This document shows, piece by piece, positions 43,532 to 50,810 of a stretch of DNA of 64,000 nucleotides. The position numbers and the translations under genes are program-made. The first letter of the stretch is position 1, and each line of letters opens with the position of its first letter. This DNA comes from Nitrosomonas oligotropha (GTDB lineage: Bacteria > Pseudomonadota > Gammaproteobacteria > Burkholderiales > Nitrosomonadaceae): positions 186,001-250,000 of the forward strand of contig NZ_FNOE01000001.1 of the NCBI RefSeq assembly GCF_900106555.1, read 5' to 3'. Under the pieces are notes generated by a model. The model was not told the origin of the DNA. It searched no databases and was given only the letters and a program-made list of their open reading frames with translations.

Positions 43532-43842
43532 TTTGGGAATAATTTCTCTATCTATTTAATTCATCAGTGATTTTATCAAATCGTTGCTTGGGAAAATATG
43601 TGACATATATCCCGAAGCAACACGCTGCGCACCCTGTTAGTCAAATATCCTGATAAATAGAGGTAAATGTCCCAATTTTTAGGTTGTTTTAAATCAAGTA
43701 CTTCTGCTGCAAGCAGCAAAGTATTAATGGTGTTCTTCGTTCAAGTTGATGCAGATCAATGTAGCTATAAATCTTTTTTTTTATGCTGTCGCGGTTGAAG
43801 TCAGTTGCTAATAAAAAAACCAACCCTCTAAAGGAGAATGTT
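43532..43842. other. Regulatory region between aat and the FNR-box outer-membrane gene
   Basis: 311 bases without a gene. It holds the shared motif GATAAATAGAGGTAAATGTC (from 43652, continuing CC), which recurs near 49107 and 50049, and a perfect FNR box at 43746-43759. A TATAAAT-like stretch at about 43765-43771 could be the -10 of an FNR-activated promoter. Confidence 0.6.
43746..43759 (+). promoter_or_regulatory. FNR box upstream of outer-membrane protein gene
   Basis: TTGATGCAGATCAA is a perfect FNR/ANR site, centred 90 bases before the ATG at 43843. The TATAAA at 43765-43770 lies too close to it for a standard class II promoter (site at -41.5), so the exact promoter geometry is unclear. 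The Fnr protein encoded at 22166 is the natural candidate regulator. Confidence 0.8.
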
Positions 43843-44760
43843 ATGAAGTATTTATCACCCAATAAAAAATTAACCGGCAATTTTCTTGCTGGTTCGCTTT
43901 TAGCGGCTGTTGCAATGGCTGCACCTCAAGCCGTGGCAGGTGATGCAGCTGCTGAGCGTATTAAGCAATTAGAACAAAGCTTGCAAGCTATTCAAGTTGA
44001 ATTACAAAGAATAAAATCTGAATCCGCTCAGGCTGCACAAAAGGTTAAAAGTATAGAACAAACCGCTACTCAGACAGAACAGAAAATAAATAGTCTTGAA
44101 GAGAGGAAAGCAGCGCTCCTAGATAGGGTAGATCCTCTAACACAACGGATTGGTTCGGATATCACAGAAAAAACTCGTATGCTGCATTTCCGTGGTGGTT
44201 TTACACATCAAATGAATCAGCGTAACGGCTCAAGCATACAAAGTATTGTCGCGCCGGTTGGAGCTCAAGATCAGGCTGGTAAAGATGGATGGTACGTGGG
44301 TGCAGGTATTGATTGGGGATTGACCAGAGATATGTGGGGGTTTATGCCAAAAACGACTGTCTTTGCAGAATTGATGTTTGAATATAAACAATTTGGCAAC
44401 CATGTTCAGGGCAACGCGCTTGCTAATGCGCCTACTATGTTAGTGGGCGCTCCGCAGAATCCGATTAATGTAACAGTCAGTCAGTTTACTTTAACAGCAT
44501 CCCCTAAAATCAAATTTTTTGAAGGCTCCAAAATTAGACCTTGGATTATTCCTGCAGGTTTAGCAATTCACGTTATGAGTCCAACTTCTGAAGCCATTAC
44601 GTATTTAGCACCAGGTATTCAGTTTGGCGCAGGTGTTGACTACAATATCTGGAAAGATTTCTTTATTGGTATCGATGGCCGCTATCAATTGGTGAATAAG
44701 ACGGATGGTGTTAATTTGAGCGGCATGACCGCAGGTGGTTATGTTGGAATCGGGTTCTAA
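43843..44760 (+). CDS. Outer-membrane beta-barrel protein with N-terminal coiled coil
   Basis: 305 residues from the ATG at 43843, which follows AAAGGAGAA. The signal peptide ends near AVAGDA. Residues about 28-95 form a heptad-patterned coiled coil (ERIKQLEQSLQAIQVELQRI onward). The rest is a beta-barrel with strands such as WYVGAGIDWGL, TTVFAELMFEYKQF, FTLTASPKIKFF and FIGIDGRYQLV, ending GGYVGIGF with terminal Phe. Coiled coil plus barrel is typical of proteins that also hold peptidoglycan or form trimers. FNR control is suggested by the upstream site. Cargo or function unknown; not a recognised porin. Confidence 0.82.
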   Translation: MKYLSPNKKLTGNFLAGSLLAAVAMAAPQAVAGDAAAERIKQLEQSLQAIQVELQRIKSESAQAAQKVKSIEQTATQTEQKINSLEERKAALLDRVDPLTQRIGSDITEKTRMLHFRGGFTHQMNQRNGSSIQSIVAPVGAQDQAGKDGWYVGAGIDWGLTRDMWGFMPKTTVFAELMFEYKQFGNHVQGNALANAPTMLVGAPQNPINVTVSQFTLTASPKIKFFEGSKIRPWIIPAGLAIHVMSPTSEAITYLAPGIQFGAGVDYNIWKDFFIGIDGRYQLVNKTDGVNLSGMTAGGYVGIGF

Positions 44761-45103: not shown

Positions 45104-47890
45104 TTAATGCCCTATGGGATCGCGCTGTGCGGTTGTTAAGCCGCTTTTCCATGTTTCCGGCAGGTTTTGCACCCAACCGTTATAGACATTAGGAATGGCA
45201 AGTACTCCCTGGCCGCCAAATCCGGGTAAGCGGCTAACTGTATCATCGGTAGCCGTATTTCCACCGGTCACAAGTGGAACATATCCAGCAATCGTTGCAT
45301 CGCTTAAGTTGCCGTCACCATTCGGGTCGGTATCGACAACGGCAAGCCGGTTAGAAAACTTGCTGGTGACATAAGCATAGTAACCGCCACCTTGTTTTGC
45401 GCCGAAGTTTGCGCCATGACAACCGGGATCACAATCCAGCATTGCAGCGATTGTATCGGTTGAGGTATCAACGACCACGATTTGCCCACCCATCGAAGCG
45501 ATAACCATAGACTTACCGTCCGGGGCAACCGGTGTTTGAATGGGCAGTACGCCTACCGCAATTTTCCCGTTGCCGTCATTGTCCGCAAATGCTCCGGTAA
45601 TCGGGTTGTAGTCAGCAATGAGGTTAACGGTTTTCAGCAAATTACCCGCTCCATCCAGCACGCTCAAGGTATGATGTAGCAGATTGGTCGCATAAATTTT
45701 GCTTGAATCCGGCATCATACCGATGGCAACCGGGTGCGCACCAGGAGCATTGTTTCCTGTGGGAGTTCTGGCTTCAATGCCGCCATTGCTGCCATAAATC
45801 CCGACGTCACCGGTACTGATATTCGGCGTTACGATCTTGCTACCGTCCGCGCTGATCCAATGTCCGTGCGGATGAGCCGTACTTTGCCCGGCTGCTTGCG
45901 TCGGCAATGCCTTGAAGACATAACTGGTGCCAGCTGGCATCATCATAATGCTGTCTTCACCGTTGTTTGCGATCGTGACATCGTCGGTAGATGGTAACGT
46001 CATCACATGGGAAGGTGAATAACCCACTTGTATGTTCTTGATCAATTTACCGTCGGCATGATTAATCAAGGTTAATTTGTTATCAAACCATTGGGTCTGG
46101 TAAACGACCGATTGATCCCGGTTGGTCCACATGTTATGCGGATTATTCATGTTGATCTCGGGTAATGCAATCTTGCGTTTGACAGTCCAATTACTGGCAT
46201 CGACTACCGTGATCGTGCCCGGCTTGTATTTTCCGGCGGTTTTTTCGAACTGCGTATTAACCCATACTTCGCCCACGCCAGGCACGGCTGGTTTAGAACC
46301 GAATGCAATCGGCTGATCGCTATTCAGCACTGCGGATAACGGTGCTGCCAGCCCGCCGCTGGCGATATTGCCGAAAGGTGCGCCGGATATTCTGACCGGC
46401 AACGTTGGAAACTTCACGCTCCAATGGCCGGTTGAATAATCTTGCCAATTATCCGGTGCCGTGGCGATGAAAAATGTTTTCAGCAAACGGACCGCAAGGT
46501 CAGTGCTGGTTGGCAGCCCTTTGATGCCGGTCACCAGATCAATTTTATAATCTGCGGCCGGATTGCCTAGATCAAGACCTACAGTATCAGGATCGTCGAC
46601 GATGACTGCGGCAAACATAAAGGGATGCACTTTACAAGTAAAGACGTACAGTCCCGGTGTGTCCAGTTTGACAATGCCGCCGCCCCGGTACGCTGTGGTT
46701 TGGTTGAAAGGCATGTGAGCCGCCCCTGATGGCCACAGCAGCGAGCTGATGGTATGCACGCCGTTGGTGTCCGACATGACAAAGTTCACGCTGCTGCCCG
46801 GAGCGATGACTTCCAAGGACTTGGTTTTAATATCCAGAGACTTATCTTCATCCGGGCCGGTTAATCCCACATCCTTGTTGCGCAATCCAACAATGGCATC
46901 TCCGCGCGCACTTCTGAACCAGCTGGCCGGTTCATCGCTGACTTCAAACGTCACCAAGCCGGGTTCGTCTTTAGGACCGAGCAGGATCCGTCCGTATGGC
47001 GATGCGCCGACTACACTGGCGCCACTACCACCGGCCGGTGCCACTTTGAAGCTACCGTGCATGCCGGCTTCCATATGTGAAACTAGATGGCAGTGATATT
47101 GCCAATCGCCCGCGCCGACGCCGCTGCCCGCTTTGACGGTGAAAGAATGAGTATCGGTGCCGTCTTGCAATAATTTGACGTCGATGGTCGCATTGGTACC
47201 GGTTTTAAACCAGCGATGCGCGTGCAAATGGAAAGTATGACCGGGTCCTACCGATAAAATATGGAAACGGACGATATCGTTTTCTACTGCGCCGGGATTC
47301 GGATTCGCCCAGAGCGGTTTTTGCGTTGTGCCATCGCCAGAGATTTCGGTGCCCCAGAAAGTTGAACCGACCATAAACAATACGAACTGTTTATCAATGT
47401 CCGCCTGCGCTACCGGCACGGTAGCGCCATTGTCGTCGATATACCGGTCGATTGGTCCGCTGGTGGGATCAACAATCAGCGCACCGAACAAACCGAGCAT
47501 TTCCTTGCCGTTGCCATGGTAAACGAACGTACCGGATTTGTTGGCATGGAAAGTATAGTTTTGCGTTTGCCCTGGCAGTGCGTTCGCAGCGCCTTTGCCC
47601 TTGTCCTGCAAACCGGGCACGCTAAAACCGACTTCGGCCGATGTGGTGTTGGTCAGCGTCACATTGATCGTGTCGCCTTGTCTTACGAACAATGCCGGAC
47701 CCGGAATCACGGCTTCGGCATCGCTGCCAAGAGCATAAGCTAATTGACCGTTCGGCAGGGTTTTGGCTGTGATATTAAAACTTTGCACCGCAGATAGCGC
47801 CATCGGGGATATCAGCGCAGTAATGGCAAACAGCATAAGAGCTGCTAGCATCGGAGCTGGATTCTTAATACCAAAAATATTTTTACTCAT
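45104..47890 (-). CDS. Multicopper oxidase subunit with intact domain 2, extra cupredoxin and beta-propeller
   Basis: 928 residues with signal peptide (to about ALSA, 33). Residues 35-142 are a cupredoxin domain 1 with a lost copper site: S90 and P92 replace the HxH pair, and only H125 remains in YHGN. Residues 150-285 are domain 2 with a full two-domain-laccase ligand set: H218, H221, H223 (HTFHLHAHRW), H266-C267-H268, H272, M277. Residues about 300-435 hold a third cupredoxin with a type 1 site H379, C419, H422, M425 (FTCKVHPFM). Residues about 535-910 form a YVTN-type beta-propeller carrying AHPHGHW and CDPGCH. Substrate unknown. It follows its partner gene by 36 bases, and the two probably form one complex (see findings). 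Confidence 0.9.
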   Translation of the reverse strand: MSKNIFGIKNPAPMLAALMLFAITALISPMALSAVQSFNITAKTLPNGQLAYALGSDAEAVIPGPALFVRQGDTINVTLTNTTSAEVGFSVPGLQDKGKGAANALPGQTQNYTFHANKSGTFVYHGNGKEMLGLFGALIVDPTSGPIDRYIDDNGATVPVAQADIDKQFVLFMVGSTFWGTEISGDGTTQKPLWANPNPGAVENDIVRFHILSVGPGHTFHLHAHRWFKTGTNATIDVKLLQDGTDTHSFTVKAGSGVGAGDWQYHCHLVSHMEAGMHGSFKVAPAGGSGASVVGASPYGRILLGPKDEPGLVTFEVSDEPASWFRSARGDAIVGLRNKDVGLTGPDEDKSLDIKTKSLEVIAPGSSVNFVMSDTNGVHTISSLLWPSGAAHMPFNQTTAYRGGGIVKLDTPGLYVFTCKVHPFMFAAVIVDDPDTVGLDLGNPAADYKIDLVTGIKGLPTSTDLAVRLLKTFFIATAPDNWQDYSTGHWSVKFPTLPVRISGAPFGNIASGGLAAPLSAVLNSDQPIAFGSKPAVPGVGEVWVNTQFEKTAGKYKPGTITVVDASNWTVKRKIALPEINMNNPHNMWTNRDQSVVYQTQWFDNKLTLINHADGKLIKNIQVGYSPSHVMTLPSTDDVTIANNGEDSIMMMPAGTSYVFKALPTQAAGQSTAHPHGHWISADGSKIVTPNISTGDVGIYGSNGGIEARTPTGNNAPGAHPVAIGMMPDSSKIYATNLLHHTLSVLDGAGNLLKTVNLIADYNPITGAFADNDGNGKIAVGVLPIQTPVAPDGKSMVIASMGGQIVVVDTSTDTIAAMLDCDPGCHGANFGAKQGGGYYAYVTSKFSNRLAVVDTDPNGDGNLSDATIAGYVPLVTGGNTATDDTVSRLPGFGGQGVLAIPNVYNGWVQNLPETWKSGLTTAQRDPIGH

Positions 47891-47926
47891 AGTGTCATCC
47901 TTATACTTAGGTATGTTGGCAAATGA

Positions 47927-48919
47927 TTATTTGACGATAAATTGACCGGTCATACCCATCAGTTTGTTGGAGAAGTTGTTATCAACGTATTGCGTGCTGC
48001 CTTTAGCTTTCACGGCAAATACGTGTTTCTCAAGCGGGCCGATTGCAGCTTGATTGATAAGCTTGTTAGTTCCCGGATCGAACCATTTGTAGCCGTTCAA
48101 TGAAAAATTGTGGATGTCGGTGCCCAATGCAATCAGATGAAATCTGACATCGCTGTTTTTGGCCGCGGATAATGATGGATTAACACCGTGTTTCGATTGC
48201 TGTTTGCTTGCGCCGTCGATTTCCATACCCCAGAAAGCATCGTCTCCGAGATAAAGCACATATTCTTTGGCGTAGGCAGCAGAACCGGCAGGATTAACGA
48301 TAATGGCGCCGAACAGACCTCTGGTTTCGGCTCCGTTATGGGTTTCAAAATTGTGATCGTGATAAGCCCAGGTGCCTGCCGTTCCAGGCGCCACATCCCA
48401 CGTGTAATGGTAGTCTTTGTACGAAGCTTCCAAACCATCGCCCGCGCCTTCGTCGTCGTGATTGTTAATCACCTTGAGCGTGCCGTCGCTGTCAATTTTG
48501 TAGTGAACACCATGCACATGCAAACTGACTTGTTTGCTGACGCCAGGAGTGTGTGTAAATGCACCCGGTATTGCGTTTTCAAGCGTTATTTCAACTTTAT
48601 CGCCTTCGGTTAACACGATTGTAGGACCGGGAATGGTCGCATCATGACTGTAGCGGCCGGTGATGTCCGCGCCATCAACTATGTGGCTCAGCATCTTGTA
48701 AGCCATCAATTTATTACCGAATCCGTCGTTGCGCGTTTCTTCCGCAGTCATACGTATGATGTGATTGGCTGCGGAACTCTCTGCCACGGGCAGAAACGAC
48801 ATTGCGGATACAAGACAGATTGCAGCAAGCGATTGTTTTAACAAAGCGCTATTTGGCATCGCCAGCGAATTCCCGGGGAATTCCTTGACATGCCACTGTT
48901 GATTGGATTGAAACGTCAT
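47927..48919 (-). CDS. Two-domain multicopper oxidase subunit with intact domain 1 only
   Basis: 330 residues from the ATG at 48919, which follows AAGGAGG; the frame is open further upstream but that start has no RBS. A hydrophobic signal segment lies at about 31-50. Domain 1 matches small laccases: LHVHGVHYKIDSDG with H134 and H136, and WAYHDHN with H187 and H189. Domain 2 aligns to the laccase pattern without gaps, but the ligands are replaced: HNFSLNGYKW has S273 and N275 for two His, and YVDNNFSNKLMGMTG has V312, D313, N314 and N318 for His, Cys, His, His. Alone it cannot build a type 1 site or a complete trinuclear cluster. It is the first gene of the pair. Confidence 0.9.
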   Translation of the reverse strand: MTFQSNQQWHVKEFPGNSLAMPNSALLKQSLAAICLVSAMSFLPVAESSAANHIIRMTAEETRNDGFGNKLMAYKMLSHIVDGADITGRYSHDATIPGPTIVLTEGDKVEITLENAIPGAFTHTPGVSKQVSLHVHGVHYKIDSDGTLKVINNHDDEGAGDGLEASYKDYHYTWDVAPGTAGTWAYHDHNFETHNGAETRGLFGAIIVNPAGSAAYAKEYVLYLGDDAFWGMEIDGASKQQSKHGVNPSLSAAKNSDVRFHLIALGTDIHNFSLNGYKWFDPGTNKLINQAAIGPLEKHVFAVKAKGSTQYVDNNFSNKLMGMTGQFIVK

Positions 48920-49139: not shown

Positions 49140-49865
49140 CTATTTTTCGTGATCTTGTGGGAAAAATGTCCCAAAAAGGTAGGATTCTTTGAAGTAGTTA
49201 TATAACGGAGCTTTCAGGCACAGCTCAATCTGTTTCTTTACGCCAATTTTTCTATAAATAACAGAAAGTTGGTTCCTAACCGTTTTTTCCGTGACTAGTA
49301 ATTGCGCGCTGATTTCTTTCGCCGATAAGCCTTTACATGCCAGATAGGCAATATGGCGCTCACTATCGCTTAATTTGGGTTGCTGCGATGAGCGTTTATC
49401 GGTTTTTATTTCTACCGGTGGATTGGAATCAAACTGCGCTTGCCAGAGCAGTTTGGTAACGTTGCGATCGAACCAGATTTGTCCCGAGTGAATGGCATGG
49501 ATGGCTTTCAACAGCAAATCGGAAGAGTGATGTTTGCTGATAATGCCCATCGCTCCGGAGCGAAAGGTTTTTAGGTGCGTTTGTTCGCTATTCTGGTGAG
49601 AAAAAGCCAGTACCTTGCTTTGCGGACAAGCATGCAGCAATTTGGTGATATGTTCGGCATAGTTGCCACCGCTGAGCTGTAAATCCATAAGAACGATATC
49701 CGGCTTATGCTGTGCTGCCAGCTTGAATAAGTCTTCGATTGAGCTGGCCTCTGCAACGAGGTGAATGGAATGGTTGTTTTCAAACAGTGAACGCAAGCCG
49801 ATACGCACGAGCTCAAAACTTTCAGCCACTAAGAGACGTATTTTTGTATGAGACTCCTCGACCAT
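49140..49865 (-). CDS. LuxR/NarL-type response regulator, atypical receiver (paralogue 1)
   Basis: 241 residues. Receiver domain (about 8-125) with phospho-acceptor Asp61 (VLMDLQL), Ser89 and Lys111, but the usual acidic pair is E15-S16 (LLVAESFELVRIGL), which may weaken Mg-dependent phosphorylation. The C-terminal LuxR helix-turn-helix is at about 165-218 (LSDSERHIAYLACKGLSAKE, then VTEKTVRNQLSVIYRKIG). It is a close paralogue of the next gene. No histidine kinase lies in the window. Its position behind the oxidase pair makes it the likely local regulator. Confidence 0.92.
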   Translation of the reverse strand: MVEESHTKIRLLVAESFELVRIGLRSLFENNHSIHLVAEASSIEDLFKLAAQHKPDIVLMDLQLSGGNYAEHITKLLHACPQSKVLAFSHQNSEQTHLKTFRSGAMGIISKHHSSDLLLKAIHAIHSGQIWFDRNVTKLLWQAQFDSNPPVEIKTDKRSSQQPKLSDSERHIAYLACKGLSAKEISAQLLVTEKTVRNQLSVIYRKIGVKKQIELCLKAPLYNYFKESYLFGTFFPQDHEK

Positions 49866-50126: not shown

Positions 50127-50810
50127 TTATTTGAAGAGATCAAACTGAGAAGCTATAAGACATAATTCAATTTGTTTTTTGACACCGGTTTTTCGGTAGA
50201 TTGCAGATAATTGGTTACGAACAGTTTTTTCCGTGATATCCAGCCGTATACTTATTTCTTTAGCGGATAAACCTTGGGTTGCCAGAAAAGCAATGCGGCG
50301 TTCGCAATTGCTGAATTTAGGATGAGCCCAAATGCTGTCATTGCACCGTATTTCTGCCTGTGGATCGGAACTGGATTGCTCCTGTTGTTGCTCCGGTCCT
50401 GCGGTGTCACGGTTAAACCAGGTTTTTCCCGCATGAATGGCATGGATGGCATTCAGTAGTACTTGGGAGGAGTGGTGTTTGCTGATAATGCCTGATGCAC
50501 CGGAATGGAATGCGAGTAAATTGATCGGTTCGCTGATGCAATCAGAAAATGCCAGTACCTTGGTTTGAGGGTGCAAGCGCGTTAATTTGCAAATGTGCTC
50601 AGCATCGACACTTTCACTTAACTGCCAATCAATGAGCGCCACATCGGGGCGATGCTCAGCTACCAGCGCAAAAAGATTGGCTATGTCGCTGGTTTCGGCG
50701 ACCAGATGCACGGAGGCGTGATCCTTGAATAAAGTGCGTAAGCCTATGCGAATAAGATCAAAATTTTCTGCAACAAGTATACGAACTTTATGATGTAATC
50801 TATCCGTCAT
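50127..50810 (-). CDS. LuxR/NarL-type response regulator, atypical receiver (paralogue 2)
   Basis: 227 residues, aligned end to end with paralogue 1 but 14 residues shorter at the C terminus. The receiver has Asp61 (ALIDWQL), Ser89 and Lys111 and again a changed acidic pair, E15-N16. The LuxR helix-turn-helix is LSAKEISIRLDITEKTVRNQ followed by LSAIYRKTGVKKQIELC, nearly identical to paralogue 1, so both probably recognise the same DNA. Orphan: no kinase nearby. It lies upstream of paralogue 1 in the same direction with 261 bases between. Confidence 0.92.
   Translation of the reverse strand: MTDRLHHKVRILVAENFDLIRIGLRTLFKDHASVHLVAETSDIANLFALVAEHRPDVALIDWQLSESVDAEHICKLTRLHPQTKVLAFSDCISEPINLLAFHSGASGIISKHHSSQVLLNAIHAIHAGKTWFNRDTAGPEQQQEQSSSDPQAEIRCNDSIWAHPKFSNCERRIAFLATQGLSAKEISIRLDITEKTVRNQLSAIYRKTGVKKQIELCLIASQFDLFK

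Follow-up and report, generated by a model that had tools for sequence, protein, structure and literature searches.

In a 64,000-nucleotide stretch of the Nitrosomonas oligotropha genome (GCF_900106555.1, contig NZ_FNOE01000001.1, positions 186,001 to 250,000; hereafter the window), two neighboring genes encode laccase-like proteins, termed here S (small subunit) and L (large subunit), each of which has lost copper ligands that the other has kept. Multicopper oxidases are a textbook enzyme family in which oxygen is reduced at a cluster located between two domains. Judging from the sequences of this pair and its relatives, it is highly probable that S and L are obligate partners in a hetero-oligomeric multicopper oxidase and that its trinuclear cluster forms nowhere but between domain 1 of S and domain 2 of L. 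The initial annotation of this DNA had proposed such a pair sharing one type of cluster, and the proposal is now backed by the co-occurrence of the two genes, their fixed order, complementary ligand loss across the lineage, the grouping of each protein in one clade, purifying selection on the ligand-free domains, and the existence of an intact outside form.

Complementary copper sites in S and L

The gene for S (47927-48919, minus strand) lies upstream of the gene for L (45104-47890, minus strand) with a gap of 36 bases, and the coordinates and reading frames of both proved correct on rechecking. S has 330 amino acids and a signal-like N-terminus that, judged by eye, suggests it is probably exported; Met21 is a possible alternative start. 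L has 928 amino acids and comprises two laccase-type domains, a third cupredoxin domain and a seven-bladed propeller, the last two of which were absent from the initial annotation. Both proteins have the fold and motifs of a two-domain multicopper oxidase, as indicated by sequence matches to two-domain laccases in Pfam and PDB and by Foldseek searches, in which both proteins were best matched by chains of two-domain laccases (Ssl1, SLAC and SgfSL among them). Structure predictions reached a pLDDT of 80.1 and a pTM of 0.76 for S, and 83.8 and 0.84 for L. Neither polypeptide carries a complete set of type 1 (T1) and combined type 2 and type 3 (T2/T3) copper ligands.

Domain 1 of S (residues 53-212; 48284-48763, minus strand) retains the T2/T3 histidines H134, H136, H187 and H189, and all four are present in 73 of 73 S open reading frames (ORFs). 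Domain 2 (residues 245-329; 47933-48187, minus strand) reads S273, N275, V312, D313, N314 and N318 at the positions expected to hold ligands, as had been noted previously, so that the four T2/T3 histidines and two of the four T1 ligands (the Cys and the second His) are gone. Among the 73 ORFs, no histidine occurs at 273, 275, 312 or 318, a single one occurs at each of 313 and 314, and no S carries the domain-2 ligand set. The other two former T1 ligands are H270 (64 of 73) and M323 (70 of 73), and the former T1 Cys position is Asp in 63 of 73. Residues 270 and 313 tend to covary: in 71 rows including the window sequence, the combinations are His-Asp (60), Asn-Asn (7), Asn-Thr (1), His-Thr (1) and two others, and wherever 270 is Asn (eight sequences), 313 is Asn or Thr. 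These residues might form either a hydrogen-bond pair or a remodeled site.

The reverse pattern is found in L. Its domain 2 (residues 195-286; 47033-47308, minus strand) holds both the T1 ligands H218, C267, H272 and M277 and the T2/T3 histidines H221, H223, H266 and H268, exactly the set first reported for it. H266, C267, H268, H272 and M277 are invariant in 70 of 70 ORFs, and H218, H221 and H223 are present in 69, the remaining ORF being truncated. In domain 1 (residues 36-145; 47456-47785, minus strand), the losses previously read as S90, P92 and N127 are borne out, with histidine at these three positions in none of the 70 ORFs, and no L has a domain-1 ligand set. The fourth histidine position is occupied by H125, which is drifting, since it is His in only 40 of 70 ORFs.

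Combined, S and L supply one full set: eight T2/T3 histidines, four from each protein, and a single T1 site. The motif spacing in both window proteins can be read without gaps, as had been stated, and the expectation that the complementary losses always co-occur holds in that they are never reversed in the 73 S and 70 L ORFs. The same pattern is reproduced in the named-locus set of 70 S genes and 68 L pieces, where the odd letters are due to the two frames of one broken L (L130) and the gaps to truncated copies. Because the ligand halves are complementary and are kept in the intact copies of relatives, S and L very probably must join to make one working enzyme.

Outside its laccase-type module, L contains a third cupredoxin domain (residues about 355-435; 46586-46828, minus strand) with weak family matches and a T1-type set of H379, C419, H422 and M425 that is present in 70 of 70 ORFs; its H...C-x2-H-x2-M spacing we take to be amicyanin-like. 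With this domain, S and L together total five cupredoxin domains, and three-domain oxidases are able to close the ring within one chain. A heteromer that does not form the ring of two-domain laccases, such as a 1:1 unit of five cupredoxins in which the third cupredoxin of L is structural, is accordingly a minor possibility. Such a role fits poorly with a T1-type ligand set kept in every L, and in intact relatives the third cupredoxin resides in a separate protein.

The C-terminal part of L is a YVTN/lactonase-type propeller (residues about 546-926; 45113-46255, minus strand), whose best structural match is 1l0q (Z 37.2, 293 aligned residues, 2.1 A). The fold matches include 5i5j, a nitrous oxide reductase (NosZ), the enzyme with a CuZ site in its propeller (Z 30.8, rmsd 2.8, 305 aligned), and many other propellers score similarly. 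Histidines 585, 628, 675, 677, 719 and 825 are found in all 70 rows of the first sequence set that cover them. In the named-locus set, 719 is Leu in the two gammaproteobacterial metagenome-assembled genomes (MAGs) and the other five are His in every piece that covers them (65 of 68, with three gaps); position 719 of the related Methylocystis protein, aligned by eye, is also not His. Several of the conserved histidines stand at or next to strand starts in several blades of the L model, where they would point inward, and a metal site in the propeller is possible. Classification of L as a clade III lactonase-type NosZ (L-NosZ) was tried and rejected, because many genomes match the corresponding model and none exceeds its cut-off: L scores 23.6 bits against an NF052460 cut-off of 700, and 0 of 21 genomes lie above it. 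Protein P0004 scored 62.7 bits against the same model, also below the cut-off.

The enzyme is proposed to be a periplasmic oxidase of the two-domain type that would function solely as an S-L hetero-oligomer. Domain 1 of S would contribute four histidines, domain 2 of L would contribute the T1 copper site along with the four further histidines that complete the trinuclear cluster, and oxygen would be reduced where these domains meet. Domain 2 of S and domain 1 of L would be retained as structural parts of the ring, and the third cupredoxin of L probably hands electrons to the T1 copper. We infer export, assembly, copper loading, activity and the electron path, as well as the order of evolutionary steps given below. 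As in known relatives, the assembly might be a trimer, which would hold one complete site per ring. This last point requires a revision of the initial annotation, which had pictured an alternating ring with one active cluster type and half of its interfaces empty. A single active cluster type agrees with the genomic tests, but a trimer, as described for two-domain laccases, is incompatible with half-empty interfaces. Two kinds of subunit cannot alternate around a ring of three, and its composition would therefore be S2L or SL2, with one complete, one half-equipped and one empty contact; the half-empty state would arise only in an even-numbered ring.

Distribution and domain conservation of the pair

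In a survey of 125 genomes of the family, S and L were searched separately and the resulting genome sets compared. S is present in 72 genomes and L in the identical 72 (matches of any kind occur in 87, a number that includes other multicopper oxidases and cross-hits between S and L). Among the other 53, 51 show neither gene, and two (G059 and G078) have C-terminal L-like pieces only. L follows S on the same strand at 64 of 68 named loci, and is split or truncated at three of these (L130, L187 and L168). At the remaining four loci no L follows S: the sequences of L126 and L167 run out within about 100 bases of S, the S of L163 is broken and close to the end of its contig, and L154 is discussed below. 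Broken or truncated copies occur in six genomes (G092, G064, G032, G012, G059 and G078).

The shared distribution bears on whether S and L might act apart, with L forming a trimer of its own that merely transfers electrons through its T1 sites, and S serving to bind copper or as a scaffold. Half-sites could bind copper singly, and L does keep two full T1 sets. We nonetheless regard this arrangement as improbable, for it leaves four plus four conserved T2/T3 histidines with no evident use and is at odds with the presence of both genes in the same 72 genomes.

Most named loci (60 of 68) are titled Nitrosomonas, Nitrosospira or Nitrosovibrio, and the others are from MAGs labeled Proteobacteria (two), beta proteobacterium, Nitrosomonadales, Burkholderiales, Nitrospirae, Chromatiales and Pseudomonadales. 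Two or three S-L pairs are carried by six genomes of the same genus as the window (G088, G075, G070, G047, G063 and G027), arranged in tandem in the last two. In the tree, the Chromatiales and Pseudomonadales pairs, together with the Nitrospirae S, are nested next to the G074 and G020 copies, as if these genes had moved between lineages, the pairs as a unit.

These placements, along with the adjacency and co-occurrence of the genes, speak against S or L being partnered with another multicopper oxidase encoded elsewhere in the genome, because in the Chromatiales and Pseudomonadales MAGs the two genes are found together beside Nitrosomonas copies. Candidates for such a partner do exist, since four or five multicopper oxidase genes are reported for a group of species that includes Nitrosomonas europaea (PMC6769254) and further oxidase-like ORFs were matched in genomes of the family, yet a partnership of this type seems very improbable. 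Matches in other ORFs of family genomes include proteins of about 950-1040 amino acids. One such ORF, the single example examined (G107, L231:1421-4543, minus strand), is a 1041-residue fusion of multicopper-oxidase cupredoxin domains to a GlxA-like radical copper oxidase/galactose-oxidase-like half, with matches to NF052501 (E 1.5e-67, below the cut-off), PF09118 and PF07732. The presence of two copper-enzyme types in one chain looks unusual.

Beyond the family, an order-wide search of 399 genomes gave no S-like match above 27.5 bits. A phylum-wide search of 398 genomes with an intact Methylocystis relative gave a best non-family match of 33% identity and 68.6 bits, and no such pair was seen around the three sites inspected. 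No match was found in viral contigs, and one weak match was found in phages. AmoA/PmoA (PF02461) was not detected in the three S-bearing MAGs from outside the family, of which two also have L, although these MAGs may be incomplete; the S-L pair is thus not confined to proven ammonia oxidizers.

The ligand-free domains show signs of constraint. Mean ratios of nonsynonymous to synonymous substitution (dN/dS) from ten comparisons among five close genomes are 0.130 and 0.127 for domains 1 and 2 of S, and 0.086, 0.043, 0.035 and 0.073 for domains 1, 2 and 3 and the propeller of L. Domain 2 of S and domain 1 of L, at 0.127 and 0.086, are therefore maintained rather than decaying. At wider distances, the domain that bears the ligands is, by mean identity, the more conserved one in each protein (S, 0.62, or 0.66 in the core, versus 0.58; L, 0.67 versus 0.56). 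A few genomes do have broken or truncated copies, as would be expected if the losses were noise in dying genes or an artifact of misalignment. The chance of this is nearly negligible, given dN/dS values of 0.035-0.13 across all domains, gap-free motif spacing in the window proteins, and the recurrence of the pattern throughout the 73 S and 70 L ORFs.

Correlated evolution of the domains lends weak support to a contact between domain 1 of S and domain 2 of L. Distances for these two are the best correlated among the four laccase-type domains (r 0.82; partial correlation on the propeller 0.65; 59 pairs) and rank top in 964 of 1000 resamples, whereas domains of the same chain give lower values (0.74 and 0.71; partial 0.49 and 0.46).

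Several observations weigh against the conclusion that S and L form an obligate pair sharing one cluster. The initial annotation had recognized that it would be contradicted if many genomes had one gene without the other and with the same losses, and this was looked for and not encountered. Pairing does have exceptions: one MAG with a partial S, an S where its contig ends, an L that lacks domain 1, and the C-terminal L-like pieces of two genomes. The partial S (L154) is a rearranged copy with no L, on a MAG chromosome that also bears an S shortened at its 5' end but accompanied by L (L179). In L167, from the Nitrospirae MAG, S is at the contig end and no L is found elsewhere. In a Nitrosomonas communis MAG (G012; L080 and L168), a full-length S is accompanied by a short L that begins at about residue 256 and lacks domain 1 as well as the start of domain 2, owing to either a real deletion or an assembly fault. 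The L-like pieces, which extend from residue 370 at a contig start in G059 and span residues 594-924 in mid-contig in G078, are nearer to L than to the free paralog of its C-terminal part described below, and they have neither S nor two laccase domains beside them. In addition, both domains of S are alike by dN/dS, and after correction for noise no single domain pair has the highest correlation: S-L pairs of the four laccase-type domains give 0.78-0.84, same-chain pairs 0.76 and 0.69, and pairs involving the noisy third cupredoxin the highest values, 0.85-0.97. The remnants H125 of L and H270 and M323 of S could hint at other roles. Finally, the tree neither establishes nor rejects a sister relationship between S and L (p-AU 0.26-0.41).

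Origin, function and genomic surroundings

A tree sampled from 27 S and 26 L modules places all S in one clade (support 100/99) and all L in another (100/100), and both persist when the ligand columns are masked. An intact two-domain oxidase with all twelve ligands is encoded on a Methylocystis rosea plasmid and in two genomes of the same class as the window (G1115 and G897, the latter copy very similar by eye to that of Methylocystis). These three form a third clade (100/99), whose position relative to the S-L split is ambiguous, with p-AU values of 0.26-0.41 and support of 77/40 for the best arrangement. After each intact oxidase gene comes a second, separate gene for a cupredoxin-propeller protein that is homologous to the C-terminal region of L, and this arrangement is likely the ancestral state.

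In the simplest history from such a starting point, the oxidase would have been duplicated and one copy fused to the neighboring cupredoxin-propeller, after which the two oxidase copies would have lost complementary sets of ligands. If true, the pair is a clean natural case in which a homo-oligomer became an obligate hetero-oligomer by duplication and complementary loss, with the intact outside form still extant. Many Nitrosomonadaceae also carry a free cupredoxin-propeller paralog of about 610 amino acids that is 51-57% identical. The copy in the window genome (G000:C33:51891-53323; L230:4688-6318) consists of two overlapping frames with a stop, is shortened relative to intact copies of about 610 amino acids, and looks like a pseudogene.

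Regarding substrate, we have a weak preference, tentative and divided equally, for nitric oxide or another reactive nitrogen compound on the one hand and Cu(I) on the other. The intact Methylocystis relative adjoins a nitric oxide reductase-type region (PF22085, PF00115) and an annotated NnrS gene, and NnrS has been linked to nitrosative stress (PMC6769254). The two ORFs of this reductase-type region (L194:11994-14300) are in one frame with a stop codon between them. A core role in ammonia oxidation is disfavored by the 53 family genomes with no detectable complete pair and by the three S-bearing outside MAGs in which AmoA/PmoA was not detected. There is an outside chance that a trinuclear site shared in trans by two degenerate paralogous subunits, an amicyanin-like cupredoxin feed and a NosZ-kind metal site in the propeller together process nitric oxide or another nitrogen oxide; if true, such a copper machine of nitrifiers would have no known counterpart.

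In a study of phage infection, two multicopper oxidase genes of N. europaea are reported to rise equally (log-fold changes of 6.16 and 6.14; PMC13356812), as would fit the S-L operon. A link between the pair and NE1543 (PMC10781756) could not be established. The pair thus represents a copper enzyme for which no published function was found, although it occurs in 72 of 125 genomes of a family consisting mainly of ammonia oxidizers, N. europaea included, and these bacteria matter for fertilizer loss and nitrous oxide.

The window genome is 3.3 Mb in size and has an AmoA/PmoA-family gene (PF02461). Upstream of the pair, on the same strand, is a gene for a NarL/LuxR-type response regulator (49140-49865, minus strand), which scores highest against NarL, below the cut-off; a second gene for a similar regulator (50127-50810, minus strand) lies farther upstream. 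A regulator of this type is the commonest additional neighbor, located upstream of the pair at 33 of 68 named loci and at 31 of the 57 that have more than 1500 bases of upstream sequence; all other recurrent neighbors are found at 13 or fewer of the 68. On the opposite strand beside the pair (43783-44760, plus strand) is a gene for a coiled-coil protein with a weak match to outer-membrane barrels, whose family is found at 11 of 68 loci. A scan for promoters and terminators gave counts no different from shuffled expectation.

Relationship to known copper oxidases

The initial annotation knew of no such obligate pair, and in the open-licence literature (subscription journals being mostly outside this scope) neither a description of the pair, nor biochemical data on it, nor a trinuclear cluster common to two gene products was found. 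The nearest known counterparts of S-L are the two-domain laccases, for example SLAC, Ssl1 and SgfSL of Streptomyces, which resemble S-L in fold, motifs, the location of T1 in domain 2 and the expected interchain cluster. They are described as homotrimers with the T2/T3 site at the junction of one molecule's domain 2 with domain 1 of its neighbor (PMC6650940), in agreement with the trimer interface assumed by the initial annotation. Each is nonetheless a single product with all twelve ligands, as checked for two Streptomyces proteins, whereas S-L distributes its ligands over two genes and L has two extra domains.

Partner proteins are also known for other oxidases. Heterodimeric fungal laccases such as POXA3 have been described as having a second, small subunit, like S-L. 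That small subunit is not known to share in the active site. The Mnx manganese oxidase (MnxEFG) likewise depends on partners encoded in the same operon, but its multicopper oxidase is described as the product of mnxG alone, with MnxE and MnxF as accessory proteins lacking similarity to characterized proteins (PMC5622069). The same source presents MnxG as the only characterized multicopper oxidase that needs accessory proteins for successful overexpression.

The nearest intact relatives found for the two-domain modules, those of Methylocystis rosea, G1115 and G897, have the same domains in the same order. They differ in comprising one fully liganded oxidase and a separate cupredoxin-propeller gene, with no second oxidase copy adjacent. 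An asymmetry like that of S-L is seen in the six-domain oxidases, including ceruloplasmin, hephaestin and bacterial six-domain proteins, which are built from repeated two-domain units and are reported to keep no more than one of their three potential trinuclear sites (PMC3600357). In those proteins the sites were lost inside one chain, whereas in S-L the loss falls between separate subunits, so that the pair, if correctly interpreted, runs parallel to the single-chain course taken by oxidases such as ceruloplasmin.

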